This document shows, piece by piece, positions 1 to 64,000 of a stretch of DNA of 64,000 nt. This DNA is from Tomocerus qinae. Taxonomy: Eukaryota; Arthropoda; Collembola; Entomobryomorpha; Tomoceridae. The position numbers and the translations under genes are program-made. Location of the stretch: NCBI GenBank assembly GCA_020055645.1, contig CM034549.1, positions 27,301,930-27,365,929 of the forward strand, read 5' to 3'. The first letter of the stretch is position 1. The number at the start of each line of letters is the position of its first letter. Under the pieces are notes generated by a model. It was not told the DNA's origin, searched no databases, and worked only from the letters and a program-made list of their open reading frames with translations.

Positions 1-1111
1 ATTTTAGAGACGTATTTCTGTATTAAAGTCCGCTGAGTATGTATGTGAACCTGAGAATCTGTGAAATAATGACGTCATTTTATTTTCAAGGATAACTCAA
101 ACCTGATTTTTCGCTTTTGGGGCATCGTGTTTACATGGCAATGGGATCACCCATCTCTATATAGTATTCTACCGTCCTGCCTATTACCTATATTATGTAC
201 ATAGCTATGAGCACGAGATCGAGAGCACGTATAGTCTGAGTGATTGTATGTGCAAGATAATGAGATGGAGTGATGCATCTCTATACTTGTGATAATGGTT
301 TTATGGTGTGGATTAGCGAAGTCGACAATAGGTATACATTTAACACTTATATCCCATTATATATACTTAATTACTAACCTGGCAGATAGCCCACTTGTTT
401 TACAAATTGCTGCTTTGATTGACCTAGAGTTTGATTAAAGAATGCTAATTATAATTTTGAGTATCGAAATGTTATGTTACACGTATCAGGATGTAGCATT
501 ATATTAAAATATAATTCATGCGTATGTGGTTTGCATCACATCGTCTATTTGTCACGTATTTCCAACTAAAGCACATGACATAGGCATAATGATTTGCATT
601 GCAAATATCTAATTAAGGTTGGTGTGCTAATAAACCAATCTGTCTTAATGATCCTTAATTTTGATGTATAAGGAAGAATATGTCTTTCTTATATCCAGCT
701 TGGTGAACTTCGATAACCTTGGCTAAGCAGTGACCCTCATCTCATCATCTCAGTCTCATCCTCATCCCGTGCTGCAAAGACACATAATGCATTTTAATTG
801 CGGTAGTGTTAATCTTTCTTATCGTTAGGTGCACTAGGAAATTCATACACGCGTTTGTCCTACATTGTTTGAACTTTTAATCTTAATCCGTTCGTTCCTC
901 TAAAGACACATGCCCATTCTAAACCTAAGTACTTATAAAATGTAGCACATGTAAAGATTTTCAATTTTGAATGCTACCTATTTAATTATTTATCTACAAC
1001 TTTATAGTGTAATACATGCATTGTTTTAAGCATCTTTAGGATGGTATATTTTATGTGTTTATTAGGTTAAGTATGCAATTATAAAACTAAACGTGGTCAT
1101 AATTTCTGTAG
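1..1111. other. Intron upstream of the first visible Pgd exon
   Basis: No coding stretch recognised on either strand. The first visible Pgd exon begins in mid-protein at 1112, after an acceptor reading ttctgtag, so this stretch is best read as the tail of a Pgd intron. I looked for the missing amino-terminal NADP-binding exons and did not find them here. Confidence 0.6.
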
Positions 1112-2729
1112 CCGGAAAACCAGTAGATGATTTCGTTGATCAATTGGTACCTCATTTGGAGAAAGGAGACATAATTATTGACGGTGGAAACTCAGAATAT
1201 CAAGACACTGCACGTAGAACAAAAGCTCTTCAAGAAAAAGGTCTTCTTTTTGTCGGGTCCGGAGTATCTGGAGGGGAAGAAGGTGCACGCTATGGACCAT
1301 CTCTTATGCCCGGTGGTAATCCGGAAGCCTGGCCACATATTAAAGGAATCTTCCAGGTTGCTACCAGAAAATGATATGACAATCCATTAATTTCTTGTGC
1401 TATTTATAATGTAGATTTTGTGCTAAAGAAAATGTTTATTGTTTTTATAGTCCATTGCTGCAAAAGTTGGGACCGAGCCGTGCTGTGATTGGGTTGGCGA
1501 GTCTGGATCCGGCCACTTTGTCAAAATGGTTCACAACGGCATTGAATACGGAGATATGCAGTTGATCTGCGAGGCTTATCATCTCATGAAGGACGCTGTA
1601 GGATTGGATAACGATAAAATGAGTGAGGTATTTGCTTCTCACAGTTCTGTTATCTATTAAGTGCATATCCTATGTCATTTTTATGACATTTTGACATTTA
1701 TACTTTATTATCTCTTATAAAAGGTATTTACGGAATGGAACAAGGGAGAATTAGACTCGTTTCTTATTGAAATTACCAGCAACATTCTCAAATACAAAGA
1801 TGCTGATGGTATGTGGAATTGTTTTCCTATAATATACATATTTATGTAAAAATAAAATTTATGTAAAGATGCAGTAATGAGAAGAACAACTTTACCGTTT
1901 GATTATGAAATAGGAGTTCATTTGGTTGAGAAAATAAGAGATTCTGCCGGACAGAAAGGCACTGGAAAATGGACCGCAATCTCTGCTCTCGATTATGGCA
2001 TTCCTGTAACTCTGATTGGAGAGTCTGTTTTTGCTCGTTGTTTGTCATCTTTAAAAGAAGAAAGAGTAGAAGCTAGCGAATTACTTCCAGGTCCAGAAAG
2101 TTCTACTTACGAAGGCGATAAGACAGAATTCATTGGGCATATCCAGAAAGTAAATACAATGAATATGAATTCTAATGATAAAAATGTCATAGCTTTTTTC
2201 AGTACTAATGTGAATTTCTTTGTTATAATTTTGTTCGTATTTTCATTTTCAGGCTTTGTATGCATCGAAAATTGTTTCCTATGCTCAAGGCTTTATGCTG
2301 TTAAGAGAAGCAGCTAAACTTTATGGATGGAACTTGAACTACGGAGGAATTGCTTTGATGTGGAGAGGCGGATGCATTATTCGTAGTGCATTTTTAGGAA
2401 ATATCAAAGCTGCCTTTGACAAAAACCCACAATTAACTAATTTGCTCCTTGACGATTTTTTCAAGAATGCAATGAAGGATTGTCAAAAATCTTGGCGTAA
2501 AGTATTATCTGCAAGCGTCGAGCTTGGAATCCCAACTCCTTGTTTCAGCACAGCTTTAGCATTCTATGATGGTTTCCGTTCCGCTCGTCTCCCCGCCAAT
2601 CTCATTCAGGCTCAAAGAGACTATTTTGGAGCTCACACGTATGAGCTTTTGGAAAATCCTGGAAAATATATTCATACCAACTGGACTGGAACTGGTGGAA
2701 ATGTTTCCTCGACCACTTATCAAGTTTGA
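1112..2729 (+). CDS. Pgd: 6-phosphogluconate dehydrogenase, decarboxylating (3' exons, partial)
   Basis: Cytosolic pentose phosphate enzyme that oxidatively decarboxylates 6-phosphogluconate to ribulose 5-phosphate and makes NADPH. Five exons: 1112-1356, 1451-1627, 1724-1808, 1914-2149 and 2253-2729. All have GT-AG borders and phases match, giving 406 residues up to TGA. Roughly the first 76 residues of a usual 482-residue enzyme (NADP-binding start) lie left of the window. Visible landmarks are the [10 protein letters not shown] strand, the substrate loop [19 protein letters not shown], the catalytic segment [13 protein letters not shown] (Lys, His, Asn and Glu-Tyr that contact substrate), the family signature [13 protein letters not shown], and the carboxy-terminal [11 protein letters not shown] with the substrate-binding Arg and His. 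No frameshift or missing catalytic residue was seen. Codon one of the first exon is completed by a G from the exon outside the window. Identification is secure by family knowledge; exon ends are inferred. Confidence 0.96.
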
Positions 2730-4129: not shown

Positions 4130-6723
4130 ATGTCAAACATAGCTAAAACATTGCGTAAGTATTGCTTTAGTTTCAAAAACATTTTAATAAGAACCACTGC
4201 ACTATTTAGCTTAAATGACAAAAGAGAAAACCCATTTTGTGGCTTTCGTTTGATGTACCACCAACCACCCGAGTACCACGTACCACATTTTTAGCTTTAG
4301 TGGAATTTAATGGAAATATGTTTTATTGGTAGGTACCTTATCCCATTATGGACTCAACGTCAACCTTTGGAGACAGTCTTCCAGGTCAGTATCGCTTGTC
4401 GCAGATTTGCCAGAAAGTCATGACATGTTGCGTAAAACTTGCAGAGATTTTGCAGAAGGAGAACTAAAGCCAAACGCTGCAAAATTTGATCGGGAACATT
4501 TATATCCTAAAGAACAGGTATATTTGATTTTTCAATATGTTTCCAATATTAGCAAATTCAGAATATGCGAATATAGCTGTAATAAAATATTTGAAATAAT
4601 TTTACAGGTACGACAGATGGGAGAATTAGGTTTGATGGCTATCGCTGTAAAAGAAGAATATGGTGGAACAGGGTTAGATTACTTGGCTTACGCTATTGCG
4701 ATGGAAGAAATATCTCGGTTAGAAAAATTGTATACATTTAAAGTATAATATACACAATATAATACTTATTCTTGAAGTATCGCTAAGAAAGTATTTTGTT
4801 AGCTTTACCCAGAATTCATTGTCATCTTTCTCTTCACCAAATTCCCAATTTTCTAACTGATGGAAAACTTTCACTAACCTTTCACCGGTGCTTTCACCAT
4901 TTCTCCTTAGTTAAGTGAAAGCACCGTGACAATTGAGATTTTCATAGACTCCGAGTATATTATTATTACTACAAGAAAGTTAAAATGTCACCATTGGCAC
5001 TTTTTAAAACATTTTATGCAACGAGTTCCATTTTGAAAAATAATTAAATGGGTTAATAATATTGTTATAATAATTTTGTACAATTATAGGGGCTGTGCTT
5101 CAGCTGGTGTGATTATGAGTGTTAACAATTCTCTATATTTGGGACCTTTAAAGCAATTTGGTAGTGAAAAGCAAAAAGAAACTTTTATAAAAAATTTCAC
5201 CACTGGACAACGTGTGGGGTGCTTTGCATTAAGTGAACCAGGTATAGTAGTAGATTGTTTAATATAAAAATTATCTTGCATCAAGTATAATCTGTTCATA
5301 GGCATAAATTATCTTGTATATTTTTGCTAAGGTAATGGAAGTGATGCGGGAGCAGCTTCTACTACCGCTAAAGATAATGGGTCTTCCTATTTGTTAAATG
5401 GAACAAAGGTGAACAGTGGACCTATACTTAAGTATGCTTGCTAGGTTGTAAAAATAGTGTGCAGTTTTTACTAAATGATGATATTATGTGAATTAGGCTT
5501 GGATTACAAACGGATACGAAGCAGAGGCTACTGTAGTATTTGCAACGACAGACAAAGGAATGAAACATAAAGGAATTAGTGCGTTCATTTTACCGAAGCC
5601 AATCAAAGGTATGGTTCTTCATGAGAGTAATTAATCTATTACTTACATAATTGAGGGGTAAAGTACTAAATTATTCTGTCTTTATATTCAGGTTTATCCT
5701 TAGGAAAAAAGGAAGACAAACTAGGAATTAGAGGTTCTTCCACCTGTTCTTTAATATTTGAAGACTGTGAAATTCCCAAAGATAGTATATTAGGGTCTCC
5801 TGGAATGGGGTTTAAAATTGCGATGATGACTTTAGGCAAGTTGTTTAATTTAAGCCATTGGTTTTGGAAAAACTGAAATGCATCAGTGCTATGAATGTAA
5901 ATTTATTTATCTACTTGAATTAGATGAAGGTCGAATTGGCATTGCTTCTCAGGCCTTGGGAATCGCCCAAGCTTCTCTTGATTGTGCTGTAGGTATTTGA
6001 ATTTTCTTTTATTTTAACGTACGAATTCCACTGAAAAACGAAATACTTATTATCTGTTATTGTGGATATTCTGCAGATGGATTATGCGGCGAAGCGAACC
6101 GCATTCGGATCGTCTATACTAAAGCTACAGTCCATACAAAATAAAATTGCAGATATGTCCATGCAACTAGAGTCTGCACGATTACTAACTTGGAGAGCTG
6201 CAGTATTAAAGGACGCAAAGAAACCATTCACCAAGGTAGTCTAATTATTTATTTAAAAATCAGTAGCATGAAACATGTATTTTGTTTTAACTCACGGTTC
6301 AAATGTAAGTACTACTTAACTATATGCTTTCAGTGTAGTCATTGCAGTATAATACTAAGTGCTCATTTTGTATAATGTGAAATAGGAAGCTGCAATGGCC
6401 AAATTAGCTGCTTCTGAGGCTGCAACCTTTGTGTCACACCAATGTATACAAATCCTTGGTGGAATGGGTAAGTTCTATATATTAACTTATTTGCCCTGTA
6501 GTTCATCATCGATAGTATTGTGCTATGTATGTAAGCTCAGTAATGTCATATACATAATTGAAACACTATTTTAACTAATCTGTAAGGTTATGTATCGGAT
6601 ATGCCTGCGGAAAGGCACTACAGGGATGCCAGGATTACGGAGATTTACGAAGGAACCTCTGAAGTCCAACGTTTAGTCATTGCTGGTAATATAATAAAGG
6701 AATACGCTGCCCTTCAATCCTGA
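4130..6723 (+). CDS. Short-chain specific acyl-CoA dehydrogenase, mitochondrial
   Basis: FAD enzyme that performs the first, alpha-beta dehydrogenating step of beta-oxidation on short acyl-CoAs (butyryl-CoA type) and passes electrons to ETF. Eleven exons: 4130-4154, 4333-4517, 4608-4717, 5090-5241, 5332-5408, 5497-5608, 5692-5835, 5924-5988, 6077-6235, 6386-6467 and 6587-6723. The frame is continuous, giving 415 residues against 412 in human ACADS. The start MSNIAKTL is followed by an Arg-rich, acid-poor stretch to about residue 27, as expected of a mitochondrial presequence. Landmarks are [16 protein letters not shown] (FAD/substrate signature), [21 protein letters not shown], and YEGTSE, whose Glu392 is the catalytic base. 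Within the family it is closer to the short-chain branch than to medium, long or branched-chain branches ([19 protein letters not shown] motif). Intron 7 uses a GC donor. The same-strand Pgd gene lies 1.4 kb upstream. Confidence 0.95.
4886..4926. repeat. Perfect 12-bp inverted repeat in acyl-CoA dehydrogenase intron 3
   Basis: CGGTGCTTTCAC (4886-4897) and its exact reverse complement GTGAAAGCACCG (4915-4926) flank a 17-base loop. It lies inside the 372-base third intron, so in the pre-mRNA it could fold as a hairpin. It has no T-run and no flanking target-site duplication that I can see. Confidence 0.75.
5836..5923 (+). other. GC-AG intron in the acyl-CoA dehydrogenase gene
   Basis: The exon ends ...ACT TTA G and the intron starts gcaagt. 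The next exon starts AT GAA GGT, rebuilding the conserved T-L-D-x-G-R-I-G segment. No GT donor nearby keeps the frame and the conserved residues. The donor otherwise matches U1 consensus (AG|GCAAGT), as known for the minor GC-AG class. Confidence 0.85.
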
Positions 6724-19600: not shown

Positions 19601-22600
19601 ATTAAGAAACTGTACGCTAATTGCTTTGCGAATAATTATTATTACAATGATAATGAAAAGACTTGCTCAATTTGTATGATTTACATAGAGGTCTATCGCC
19701 CATTAGGGTCAGTGCTTTTAGTAACAGTTACTGTTACGGTAATGTAACATTCTTTAATCCTGTAAATTAATGTAAATGAAAACCGTGAAACCCTTAGTGT
19801 GACATCCAAGGTTCCTTGTCCCAAAGTAGATGAAATTAGATTTTACACTACTCTCGTGTCAAATCAAATATTATGGTTAAGAATAAATGCATAATATATT
19901 TATAAATGGTGCACCTATGAACTCCAGTCAAATTAAAACTGAATCCACGAAATTCATTGTGGAAAATTGATAAAAGCTAACCATATTATGCGTACAACAA
20001 TTCAGAGACGCATTTAATTTATTAGAATTCATACATCTACATCATACGTCAAGTTCAATCTATCTTCTTCTGGTTAAAATATTACCCTTAACCGTATTGC
20101 CATCTACATACAATTAAGTGACATAATTCACAATTTTGCATTTACATAACTGAGACTTTAAAGTTAGCAATCTAATTCTCTATACTCTAAAGGATTACCA
20201 CGTAGCAAAGTAAGGAACATCACATATTATTAAGTCCGAAAGTAAAAAAGTCATATTGCCAAAAAATAAAAAAGTCACTGAAAAACAGTAAAAGTAGTAT
20301 CAATGGTAAATACTATATAGTAGTCTGCTACCACATATTATTCATCAGAAGATATTCTCAGCTATGCATGTTTAGTGAGGGATATTTACAAGGAAGTGGG
20401 GAAAGTGTAGAAATGTTGTGGGATGGCGTTTCGGCAGATTTGTGGATGTACTTAATACTAAGTTAAGCTATGTGAATCAAGTATTTATGAATTTTGGAGA
20501 CATAAGAAGGACTGGGGAAAGTTGGCTTGTGTTTGGTTGGTTATGTGGCCTAGTCTCCTTTCGGTCCTCCTACGGCACCACAATAAACAATGATAATATG
20601 TCATAACTTATGTAAAATAGTGTAGCAAGATATTCGTGTACATCTACAGGGTTGCGGTTGAATTGAAAATATTCTGGAGCCAGATGTTACAATGTCTGCA
20701 TACAAATGTGCCATCTATATACAATGATAGCTTATTTAAAATATTTTTACGTAGGTACCTTGTAAGTGTCTGAAATTTAAATGCAAAAGACGAGACAAGG
20801 TAATAGTAATAATCTGGAGAAGATTGGAGTTTGCTGGGTATTTGTGTGTAGCTTGTCTGATATGTGGACTGAAGTGGAGCGGTCTGAAGTGACTATTATC
20901 TATATCTAATGCAATGTAGAAAATAATGGGGCATATCGCAAAGGAGAATTGAACCGTTATTTAGTTTCTGTAAGAAATTCTTCGTAGGCTTCTGACGAGG
21001 ACATACAGGATGTCCCTATGGGGAGCTTATTTCCTATATCCTTCCGAATTTCATCTAGCCAACTCATTTCTCTTCAGGACCCTCCTCGCACAGCTTAACT
21101 ATTTTCTGACATCCTTCGGTTTAATATGTATGTACTATTTTGACTTTGTATCAGCTTTCTACCTCACTCCACTGTACACAGAACAGAGTATCTCCTTTTC
21201 CTTGGCTCAAGAACGACCATTCAACATTATCATAATCATAACTAACAACGATTTCTATCTCGCATATATGTTATATCCTGTGCTGCTGTGATATTATAGT
21301 TAAAAGTCGCGTTTTGGTTTCCTTTCTTGCTTATTCCACATCATTTCTTAGTTCGTAGCCTATCTGTAGGTAGATAACATGTATTAGGTATACATTGCAG
21401 TCACCCGAAAGTAGTAGACCAGACTCAGACACAGTTTAAATTTCTAGATCGATATGAAATGATATGTAATATATACGTTAAATCACTTAGCGTACCTGAA
21501 CATAGTCTCGCTTTCTTTCACGTGTGAATTACTACTACTTTACTCCTCATAAGGATACAGCTACCTAGCACTACATAGGTACTCCTACTAAGTAATAACC
21601 TTCTCCTTACTACACTTTCACTCCAAAGTGTGAGCTTGCATTAATTTCTACTCTATCCTACTTACAACCTACACACGACTAATACAACCAACTAGGCAAG
21701 ATAAATACCCTAGCTCTAGCTATTTCAACCAAAAATAACATTTTCTAGGTGTAACTTTATGAATGCTCCTTTATACTCCTGCGAGACACTAACAGAGAAA
21801 GTAGCACATCAGTTGAAACACTAACCAAACAGTTAAGATAAATTTCCCATTTATATGTCTACAAGAACAGATACACTAGACGATGCATCTGCACTGTACC
21901 TGTATGAGTCGTCATATTCCCTCCACCTGTTCACATTCTCGGAAAAAATCACTCTATCGGAACATTCTAGTTACACTCCTCATGATATCTCCACAGAAAT
22001 TGTAACAGACATGTGACACCTAATACTATGTTCACAGCAAATTGTTGATACGCTGTAGATTTACTTCTGCGACTTGGTGATAACAACGTGGGAAAATTGT
22101 TTTCACATACCAATTTCTTTCTGCTCAAAATTTATTCACAGAATTAAGTAGTCTTTATTTGACAGTGTTATAAAAAAATGCTTGCTTTACAGACAGATAT
22201 TAAATACTATATAGCAACATGTCTTAACATTTGCAATTTCTATACAAAAATTTGTAGATGTTTGGAAATTAGAGAAATAGTTCCCAGATTAAATTGTAGT
22301 AGTGGCCTACAAACAATAACGTCCCTTGTGTATCAAATAACTTTTTGCGATAATATACATACATACAAATTATTACAATATTGTTATATGACACATTAAT
22401 GTGTACTCTACGTACTAGGATTTTTATATCTACTGTTTTCAGTACATCTTTTCAAAAACCAAGTGTAAGTAGATACCTTATTATTTAACGCTTTCAAGAA
22501 TGTGAACATACTCATCAATAACTATAAAAGAGTCCTTGAATTGAGACTTAATTATTGAACGAGCCGCTGTAGAGCTGAGCCATTCGTAGTCGTCTTGCTC

Positions 22601-25600
22601 TGAAGGATCAATTATAATTGCATGGTCAGGTATGTTCAAACGTGCTGGCCATAGATCTACACGTTTTACATTGCCCCCACTCGTTGTGTACTGTATATTG
22701 AAATTTAGAGTAAGATTGATGCAAAAAATACTATTTTAAAAAGTAATTATTTGGTATACTTACCTCAAATACTTGATGTAAATCCCAGATGGTATATTTA
22801 GTTGGGTAAATACTCGTTTCTTCCAACATTTCTCTAACAGCTGAAACCATTTGGTCTTCATTATCTTCCAAGCGACCTAGGAATGCAAATTCGTTTAAAG
22901 TATTAGTTCTAAAGTTAGCCAAACTGCAAATTAAAGAATTGCGCTTGGATTAGAATTGCGGACATTATTGACAAGCTGCACTAAGAAGAGAATAATAATA
23001 TAAAGACAAACCTTTTGGAGGAGTCCAGTCATTTTCACCCTTCTTCTTAATCAGAAGATATTCAATGTTGCTATTTTTAATACGGTACAAGACAAATCCA
23101 GCTACGAATTCTAGTTTTTGCAATCCATTTTCTAGCAGATGAGAAAAAATAGAATAGAGATGTTTTTATTAGTAATTATTATGTAACTAACGTACTAAAA
23201 CTTTCTGATGCTAATCAATTAAGAGTTACTTTACCGATTTCCGTCTCTTTGGTTGACAGTAGTGCTGCACCGTGGATTTCTTGGGCAAAGAAACAGACAG
23301 TCGCAATTAGGACAATTTGGAGAATGAATTTCATGTCGGTGCTTAAATTTTGTCAGTTGGCAATATTTTATTATGTTAATAATTAGGTATTTTCCTGAGT
23401 TTTTGATCTGTTGTTCATGTAATGTTACTGGTTCTTATTTATACTTTTCCCTCGTATCTTCAACCGAAAATACTCACAAGGTGTTTGCTGATAAAAAATA
23501 TGTCGGCTGCTATCACAGAAGACAAACCAGAGGTCATTTGATTACTTAAACACATTACTAGTTTGTAATTATTAATAAGAGGTTCGCTCTTATTATTGCA
23601 AGTAGTTTGTGTTTCTGTCTGTCTGTCTGTCTGTGTACTCTAAGCTGTATGGTCAATAACTTTTGACAGAAGTAAAATTTTTACATTCTGTCTTCGGATC
23701 CTGAAACAAGACGTATGACATGAGATCGAGTTCGTTAATGGGTCACATCGGTCACACCCACTGGTCAGGGGGAATGACTTAATTTCGATGACCGTTACAT
23801 TCCATTCCAGTTTCAATGTGATGCAATATGATGCGACATTCCAGTTTCCCGCAGACCCACCACATGTTTTACTTGTTCCTTTCATTCCACTGTGACTTAA
23901 ATTTTCGTATATCCACTACGTATTCTGCTTTACGTCCCTGTCAAGCGTCACTTTACAATTCGCGTATTTTACAATTCGTTATGTTTAACATTTCGTTTCA
24001 CCTATTTAACTTTGATTTCGTCATCAAATTTACCTTCACAATTCGACAGTTATCTCAATCATCGTAAAATTATTTGTTCTATTTCATTTGTTACACGTAT
24101 CACACGTCAAAGGTACTTTTCTTTCTGCGTTATTTATATTACATTACCTTCACACATATTTTACGTCGATTTCATTACATTTTACCTCCACATTTCAACA
24201 GTTCTCTCCTCCCCATTACGTTGGTTATTTCATCACTCATCGAAAGTACTTTCCTTTGGGCACTTCATTTTGACTAAACTAAACCGTTGAAGTAATCACG
24301 GGCTACCATTTATAACGAATTCGTTTTACACGTAAGCAATACCACTTTTATTTTACTTTTCGCGTATTTTACATTTCGTTTCTCCCATTGAGGTTAACTG
24401 TTTAACTCAGAGGTAAAATTCCTCAATTATTTTCTTTCAGTTGTAATTCCATCACTCATCATCATACTCTAACTTGACTCACCTTGAATTACCAAATTAA
24501 ATTGTACTTTTGAATGCATCTCATGCCCAAATTAAAAAAGAAAGTGTACAAGATAACCTGCAAGAAGACCGATAGAGAAAAAAACAAATGTGAAAACAGA
24601 AAAAGGATAGTGATTATTTAAAGTTTCAATTACTGGAGGAAGACGCCTCAAAAAATAGATCTGCGCGATTATCACCGAAAAAATAATGTTGGATGTATGA
24701 CGACATGTAGAGATGATCCAGTAATGCGAACACAAAGCAAAATGATGCAATGGCTCATCCAATAGCAAGACCAGATCCAGCAATCCGTTCACCAGAAAAG
24801 CGAGGGATGCAATAGCTCATAAAAATGCAACACTGGATCCAGTGATACGTATACCAGAAAATCAGGGGGATGCAAAAGCTCATAAAATAGATCAAGACTG
24901 GATTCCCTAGTGCGCACATCGGAGAAGCAGAAGGATGCCGTTGCTACGTTTTTGAAGATAAAAAACATGCAGCACCTGACAAAATACAGTAAATCGAAAG
25001 CGTGGGAAGGGCAGCGTTTCCATCGTTTTGCAACGTTGCCACATTGACATTACGGAATTCTGATTTTGGATATTTCGGGGTGGCCGTGTACCATCACATT
25101 CGAATTCGGTAGTCATCGAAAAATTATTTCATATTTACATTTCAAGTATTATCAGCCGTACAAGTTAACGGTCATCGTAAAATTATTTTCGTAAATCGTG
25201 TGAAAATCAGCTGCTTATTTATTTACCATAAGAAAGTCACCCAACCCACATTTACGGCGGGCGTAACTATGACTCTCTTATGGGTACCAAATGCCTCGTC
25301 ATCTAATTAGTGACTCGCATGAATTCCCATTGTCTCTGTCAACTATCTACCGAAACCACAGTCAAAGGGATTGATGTGGGCGGTGGGCAAACTAATGAAA
25401 TGAAATCTAGTTCTGCATTATGGGAAAACACGAGAGGTGTAGAAAAGTGGAACATCTAGGTCAACATTACTACTTCACTGACGTCACTTTTTGTCACTCA
25501 CTCAGTGAGGTGGAATTCGGCTAGATTTCCTTCGGGTCTTTTAGTTCAACGGCGTCTGTTTTCAAAATTCAGTTGGTTTTGTACATCGTATAAAGTCATG

Positions 25601-62655: not shown

Positions 62656-64000
62656 CTAAATTTTAAACAGAGAATTTGCCAATTTTCACACATTAGTCGC
62701 ATTAACTTCTGATTTTGATTAAAAACTATGATTTCTTGTTTGAAAATTGATTAAAAAATAATAATGCGAAATGCAACATAATTTTGTACATTTACATCTC
62801 CCAAAATTATTAGTTCACTCGAGAAATAAGAATGAAGTAAATTAAAATAGGTGTGTAGGTAAAAATGAGTTCATTATGCAATTTTTGTTGCGACATTTCT
62901 GAGCATAATAGATTTTAGTGTAAAGTAATTCCAATCCTCTACTATATATTGACTACTGGTATTTCATACTTCTTCAACTAAATTGCGTGGAAGAGCTTCG
63001 TAGATGCCATTTTTAGCATCAGTTGTTAAAAAATGAGCAAGCCATACATGATGATTTGCTACATTGGATAAAATTATGACCTTTTCGAAAGAAATCCGCT
63101 TAAAAATAAAAAGTGACTATTTGACACTCGAATGTTGGACACTATTTCATAGAAGGAACAAAGAACGGGATAGCGGAGCGAAATGCTCATTTTTCTACAA
63201 GGACAAGTGATGAATGGTGCTTTTTGTCTTTCTCAGTTCTGAAGACATAAAGACTAATATAAATAAGATGTGAAGAAAGAGGAAGACACAAGGTCGTTTC
63301 ATTCTCATTCTAACCCACTATAAAGTAGCAACAGAGTTTATAATATAGTACATAATAGTACTAGTATAGGGCATTGTGTAACAATACATGTTGGTAGTTT
63401 TAAGTTGAGAAGCGCTTAGGACAATCCAGTGGAGGACATGAGATGCGGAAAGTTGAAAGTTTAAGAAACCGATATTCAGATACATAATTTACTGTGGTTG
63501 TGGATGTTGAGTTGAATACCAACGAGGAAGTTGATTGTCCTATATGAAAGAGAGAGAGAGAGCAAACTGCGAGGTTTTCTTTTCGAGACGTATGCCTGAA
63601 GGAGAAGTACCTCACTCTTCCAGTCGGACTGCAGTAAATAGTTTAGCTTCATTTCATCCAACATACTCTCTTGTTCTTCTGGTTCAAAGATCTCCTCTGA
63701 TTACTCCGAAGGAGAAAGCAGGAGACATTAAACTGCTTCTTCTTCTTTTCGCTAACTAAACTACCAAGTCATCTCTATTCCAAGGTAACATTCTTCTATT
63801 GGTCTATGTACTTAAGTTTGATCTGACTGACTGGACTGTCACGTCGTCATATCCTCACAGCAATATGCAGCTAAGTAGAATTCGACTGACTCTGTTTGTG
63901 TTAGTTAAGTACAAATGGCAACGACTCCGTTTCAAGTTTCAACTACAGATAAACAACCAACAATAACCAAAAGGGAAATGTGAATACCACACAATATATG
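62656..64000. other. Decarboxylase intron at the right edge
   Basis: No conserved decarboxylase exon is visible (no PLP-lysine motif), so the upstream exons lie beyond the window. A (GA)n run lies at 63549-63562. Overlapping frames at 63400-63760 on both strands have no family resemblance. Confidence 0.5.
62964..63098 (-). other. Exon-like open segment upstream of the decarboxylase exon at 62655
   Basis: After an acceptor (ttatttttaag) there are 44 open codons (RISFEKVIILSNV... to NLVEEV) before TGA. A GTATGA donor two codons before the end, in phase 0, would join it to LGLVCFR at 62655. However, the residues do not match the conserved segment that precedes LGLVCFR in this family, so it may be chance or an alternative exon. 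Confidence 0.2.

Follow-up and report, generated by a model that had tools for sequence, protein, structure and literature searches.

The NUDT2 enzymes, or asymmetrical Ap4A hydrolases, normally act inside cells, where they cut the alarm nucleotide Ap4A, and they belong to the proteins carrying the Nudix box, whose consensus is G-x5-E-x7-R-E-U-x-E-E, then x-G-U. Outside the cell, Ap4A and related dinucleotides are signals, and to our knowledge the animal enzymes that remove extracellular dinucleotides belong to other folds; ENPP and the salivary apyrases of animals, which act on extracellular nucleotides, have folds unrelated to Nudix. Nudix proteins that are exported have been described from fungi and oomycetes: in the available part of one paper MoNUDIX of a fungus is required for virulence and the oomycete protein Avr3b bears a Nudix motif (PMC12578338). 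Here we describe a small gene of the collembolan Tomocerus qinae, found on the minus strand of a stretch of 64,000 nucleotides (contig CM034549.1 of assembly GCA_020055645.1, positions 27,301,930 to 27,365,929; called the window below), which combines a NUDT2-type Nudix domain with a first exon resembling a signal peptide. We think it probable that this is a duplicated NUDT2 gene which acquired a new signal exon and which encodes a hydrolase of dinucleoside polyphosphates that is both active and exported; its export, its activity and its substrate are what we infer from the sequence.

Results

A four-exon gene with a NUDT2-type Nudix domain

An earlier interpretation of the window, made without database searches (the sequence-only reading), had placed at 22481..23334 a gene whose product carries a signal peptide followed by a NUDT2-type Nudix domain, and had noted a TATA box. 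The span was borne out to the base (ATG at 23334, stop codon at 22483-22481, minus strand), a signal-peptide-like exon does precede such a domain, and a TATAAAT is present 109 nt before the ATG. The 854 bases of the gene divide into four exons of 100, 120, 113 and 210 nt separated by introns of 103, 135 and 73 nt, all three of them GT-AG, and the joined frame of 180 codons is open throughout.

The product matched the Pfam NUDIX model (PF00293) over residues 49-154 with 36.8 bits (cut-off 21.1; E 4.6e-9). Six of its eight matches in the PDB, including the top five, are named Ap4A hydrolases, the first being 1kt9 (E 3.7e-14), which together with 1ktg we take to be the asymmetrical Ap4A hydrolase of C. 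elegans. NUDT2s were also listed in a profile search that started from the product (1354 proteins at E 0.001 from 2057 candidates, 120 of them listed), a result that is partly circular because the query consisted of the product and two pieces of Ap4A hydrolases from the PDB. Removal from these 120 of P0001, which has two domains, of P0119 (294 residues) and of 14 rows without PPKGH left 104 canonical NUDT2s as the reference set. P0001 is itself unusual, as it is a 290-residue protein from a contig of 1377 bases with two consecutive NUDT2-like domains. When the window was scanned in six frames with a profile of the 104 canonical NUDT2s, the three domain exons were matched separately (E values in Table 1), and the next place had an E value of 2. 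By sequence, the Nudix domain of the window product is closest to the asymmetrical Ap4A hydrolases.

Searches for closer relatives gave little. In the protein collection none of 29 candidates for the full query reached E 0.001, and neither of two candidates for residues 50-153 reached E 10; as this search needs several shared 5-residue words, the result means that no close kin were seen, not that kin are absent. A tblastn search of the window for further local copies returned the gene itself and one chance match (E 0.55). A viral origin was also considered, and dropped when none of 14 viral-contig stretches that matched a pattern was confirmed by tblastn; a nudix domain has been described in a viral gene, according to the available part of the source (PMC10964624).

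The first exon resembles a signal peptide

The product of exon 1 reads MKFILQIVLIATVCFFAQEIHG/AALLSTKETEI, where the slash marks a cut site placed by inspection. It was scored by a rule devised with the sequence in view (a basic n-region, an uncharged core of 11 residues and small residues at -3 and -1), and the core hydrophobicity obtained, 2.93, was reached by 3 of the 296 ATG-led 35-residue frames in the window, the other two being nested starts of one frame at 63308 and 63302. Among the 120 NUDT2 matches listed of 1354, the highest N-terminal score by hydrophobicity alone was 2.36 and none passed a screen for N-termini of strong hydrophobicity, which flagged 19 of them, all for a long stretch before PPKG. 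The frame of exon 2 has no ATG from the upstream stop to the domain; Met occurs next at codons 83 and 90, which are inside the domain, so that the exons of this gene give no cytosolic form with the whole domain.

The window product thus departs from an intracellular enzyme starting directly at its domain in carrying an extra signal-peptide-like exon, and it has, as judged by the rule above, the signal peptide that is a trait of the secreted Nudix effectors. The predicted mature product is an acidic protein of 158 residues (18.3 kDa, pI 4.84) with no cysteine and no N-glycosylation sequon. It is likely to be exported from the cell.

Two paralogues lack the extra exon

The T. qinae genome (334 Mb in 115 contigs, the window being 27301930-27365929 of contig C4) was searched with the NUDT2 of Schistocerca cancellata (P0015). 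Eight matches were obtained: three on contig C2, three on C1, one to the window gene (E 0.0016) and one other. The window product as query gave seven, which were its own four exons, two matches on C2 and one other Nudix place with a stop. The three NUDT2-type genes are a lower bound, as only the best candidates were scored, and a Pfam search of the genome, which found nine places, missed both the window gene and the C2 gene and is not a full census.

The sequence-only reading had proposed looking for paralogues without a signal peptide, and the genes on C2 and C1 are two such paralogues. Spliced by eye and with a script, their products have 148 and 149 residues, start MSMSGPSEPEIKCAGFIL and MNSKSPKIICAGLLVF and show no visible signal peptide. 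In both, the first exon begins with Met and extends to WTPPKG, intron 1 interrupts the Gly codon of that motif (phase 1) and intron 2 falls directly before the counterpart of Tyr112 (phase 0). The window gene has its introns 2 and 3 at these same positions and in these phases, intron 3 lying directly before Tyr112. Because these two introns are shared with C1 and C2, the window gene can be described as a NUDT2 gene with an extra 5' exon and intron, and the reading we prefer is a duplicate to which a signal exon was added; the introns in common may, however, also be ancient ones of NUDT2 genes. The window product is identical to the C2 product at 49 of 146 positions and to the C1 product at 44 of 145, and the two paralogues agree at 69 of 145 (48%). 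The C1 paralogue is also without the HH pair before WTPPKG.

The paralogues bear on whether exon 1 has been joined correctly. If it had not, the true first exon would be further upstream and the protein would be cytosolic, and exon 1 is indeed based on sequence features alone. We consider such an error very unlikely, since the junction has a good donor, an acceptor with a pyrimidine tract and a phase match, since a TATA box lies upstream of a signal-peptide-like frame, and since the domain exon, unlike those of C1 and C2, has no start codon of its own.

The catalytic core is kept in a strongly diverged protein

The window product keeps the box residues G74, E80, R88, E89, E92 and E93, together with features that are typical of NUDT2: W69-G74 (WTPPKG), Y112 sixteen residues past the box, K120 and E142. 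Ten of the residues concerned (K73, G74, E80, R88, E89, E92, E93, Y112, K120 and E142) are presumably metal or ATP-site residues, going by the Nudix consensus and the 1ktg structure. The Glu/Arg core, which the sequence-only reading had called intact, is so as far as catalysis is concerned, but the Nudix box has Ser (S95) in place of its final Gly. Since Asn occupies this position in 1kt9, an Ap4A hydrolase of solved structure, the Gly was not counted as family-defining.

Beyond the core the protein has changed greatly. Its identity to the 104 canonical NUDT2s is 26-36% (median 29%), against a median pairwise identity of 54% within that set, and of the 46 columns that are at least 90% conserved in the set it keeps 23, including the ten named core residues. 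The chance that random changes would keep all ten is 2.8e-4, or 2.1e-3 for at least 10 of 11 when the lost box Gly is counted. Extreme divergence, the lost box Gly and the failure to find a close relative in the protein collection are what might be seen in a decaying duplicate without function. We find this scarcely credible, as the four exons are open, the splice sites are all present and the named catalytic positions are retained. The codon score of the gene also exceeded that of 1953 of 1953 control pieces, with a reference made of stretches of the window's 6-phosphogluconate dehydrogenase and acyl-CoA dehydrogenase exons chosen by eye, and with controls unfiltered for stops.

Gene layout and other features of the window

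The coordinates of the gene, its paralogues and the remaining features are collected in Table 1. TATAAAW occurs at 101 sites on the two strands of the window, and with 0.063 sites expected per 80-nt band the position of the TATAAAT is mildly unlikely by chance; transcription would be expected to start near 23413. The TATA box is the sole basis for calling the gene product regulated. The two AATAAA sites lie 321 and 344 nt downstream of the stop codon. Ten neighbouring open frames were compared with Pfam; none was over the cut-off, and there was one match below it (DUF6075, 14 bits). The rRNA fragment, whose likeness seems to reach about 25380, is perhaps a piece of a 28S pseudogene or part of a retroelement.

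Table 1. Positions of the NUDT2-type gene, its paralogues and other features (window coordinates unless a contig is named)
Feature	Position	Strand	Remarks
Exon 1	23235..23334	-	Signal peptide and start of the mature N-terminus; ATG; canonical donor GTAAAG
Predicted signal peptide	23269-23334	-	Residues 1-22; cut site by inspection
Exon 2	23012..23131	-	Nudix domain, first part, as far as WTPPKG; Gly74 split by a phase-1 intron; profile E 4.1e-8
Exon 3	22764..22876	-	Nudix box (E80, R88, E89, E92, E93); profile E 0.0096
Exon 4	22481..22690	-	Tyr112, Lys120, Glu142, C-terminus, stop 22483-22481; profile E 0.00017
TATA-box-like TATAAAT	23437..23443	-	Begins at 23443, 109 nt upstream of the ATG
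Candidate poly(A) signals	22131..22159	-	Two AATAAA, from 22159 and 22136; pattern match only
NUDT2-type gene on C2 (L015)	~37.932-37.933 Mb		Exons E 3.8e-12, 5.3e-8, 0.008
NUDT2-type gene on C1 (L022)	~47.781-47.782 Mb		Exons E 1.0e-5, 0.009, 0.27
6-Phosphogluconate dehydrogenase exons	1066-2726	+	1856-2314 PDB match E 1.1e-32, others by eye
Frames resembling acyl-CoA dehydrogenase exons	4311-5264	+	Open frames; by eye
Tandem repeat	24744-24890		Unit of ~62 bases, 2.3 copies
Large-subunit rRNA fragment	25244-25324	+	Rfam LSU_rRNA_eukarya, 54.7 bits; degenerate; by eye, presumably around the R2/R1 insertion site of 28S

Discussion

The course of events that we favour would begin with the duplication of a NUDT2 gene, followed by the gain of a 5' exon encoding a cleavable signal peptide. 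The product would enter the secretory pathway, be cut after Gly22 and be released as a small acidic protein, and outside the cell it would most likely cleave dinucleoside polyphosphates asymmetrically, for example Ap4A to ATP and AMP, with a divalent metal held by the Nudix glutamates. If this is true, a housekeeping enzyme has been re-addressed through one added exon, and extracellular dinucleotides could be removed by a new route, an exported NUDT2. The window product would then be a testable candidate for the removal of nucleotide signals in the gut or at a surface that serves feeding or reproduction.

Several results weigh against an active, exported Ap4A hydrolase of this origin. Exon 1 is supported by features of its sequence, without a supporting homologue, and the missing cysteines and sequons were dropped as proof of export, as 41 of the 104 canonical NUDT2s are also without both. 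Of ten NCBIfam families, whose models were made for prokaryotes, none came near its cut-off, MutT1 being first (E 3.7e-11) and far under it. With the window product as query the C2 paralogue was found at E 0.33-0.34 only. A free tree of 108 rows, whose bootstrap had not settled, placed the window gene apart from both paralogues and paired C1 with C2 (94/94); the end branch of the window gene measured 5.15 changes per column against a median of 0.11, and 4.08 against 0.10 in a tree of 119 rows. A tree constrained to unite all three genes was not rejected (log-likelihood 2.13 above that of the free tree, p-AU 0.56), a result made weak by the long branch and the unsettled bootstrap, and descent within this lineage is allowed, not proven. 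The chance values given above for the ten core residues are optimistic, because the ten were picked after the PDB alignment had shown their conservation. Finally, 23 of the 46 canonical columns differ, with substitutions that include Q62K, S64K, H68D, H75R, P78D, G79N, G to S95 and P119V.

Because half of the canonical columns have changed, the substrate may differ, and the protein could be exported and yet in practice not be an Ap4A hydrolase, acting instead on, for example, inositol pyrophosphates, NADH or ADP-ribose, nucleotide sugars or capped RNA. Besides the altered columns, the long end branch agrees with this, as does the sequence around WTPPKG, where the loop before it now reads LLIKKKGENDW and the GHVDPGE-type segment has become GRLEDNE. 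On the other hand, WTPPKG, Tyr112 at its distance of 16 residues from the box, Lys120 and Glu142 are all retained. The signatures of the inositol-pyrophosphate Nudix enzymes (PGGG) and of the NADH Nudix enzymes (SQPWPFPxS) were, on reading the window product, absent, and the C1 paralogue likewise has no HH pair, so that such changes alone prove little. We regard a changed substrate as rather unlikely, though it deserves some weight, and continue to prefer an exported hydrolase of dinucleoside polyphosphates.

A narrower form of this preferred reading would make the product a salivary or venom effector that clears damage or alarm nucleotides of a host. The sequence-only reading had suggested saliva or gut as a possible site of release, with host alarmones among the possible targets. 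The product is small, probably secreted and encoded by a very diverged duplicate, and the virulence role of MoNUDIX and the Nudix motif of Avr3b, in the part of that paper available, would fit (PMC12578338). In Arabidopsis seedlings PAL and 4CL activity is up within 10 minutes of exogenous Ap3A or Ap4A, but the same review, as far as its available part goes, has dinucleoside polyphosphates as not identified in plants (PMC7072326). A protein of the gut, the haemolymph or the testis would look no different. Nudix is among the testis genes of a dung beetle in the accessible portion of one study (PMC8382682). Open-licence literature gave nothing on nudix in the hemipteran salivary gland, and, in its titles and abstract openings, no description among the matches listed of an arthropod NUDT2 with its own signal peptide, which is not proof of absence. 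An effector of this kind is, in our view, doubtful. It is similarly improbable, though worth stating, that a housekeeping Ap4A hydrolase was duplicated in this animal, gained a signal exon and became a fast-evolving secreted effector, salivary or similar, paralleling the Nudix effectors that fungi and oomycetes possess; that it acts on a host is a guess.

Compared with known systems, the window product is most like the asymmetrical Ap4A hydrolase (NUDT2; 1kt9/1ktg, insects and other animals), with which it shares WTPPKG, the Glu and Arg residues of the box and the later Glu, Tyr and Lys, and from which it differs in its separate signal-peptide-like first exon, its identity of 26-36%, its changed loop and the Ser at the end of the box. 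With ENPP and the salivary apyrases it would share an action on extracellular nucleotides, the folds being unrelated. An insect protein with the name of an Ap4A hydrolase, a bis-(5'-nucleosyl)-tetraphosphatase, is found in the salivary secretome list of virus-hypertrophied tsetse salivary glands, but it stands there beside the intracellular proteins Ran, SET and ARF1, and the available part of the source does not state a signal peptide (PMC3222630). The fungal and oomycete effectors (MoNUDIX and its relatives, and Avr3b of Phytophthora) are exported Nudix proteins, as the window product is predicted to be, and in the available text Avr3b is said to resemble yeast DDP1 (PMC12578338). These effectors act in plant cells; the window product is NUDT2-like.

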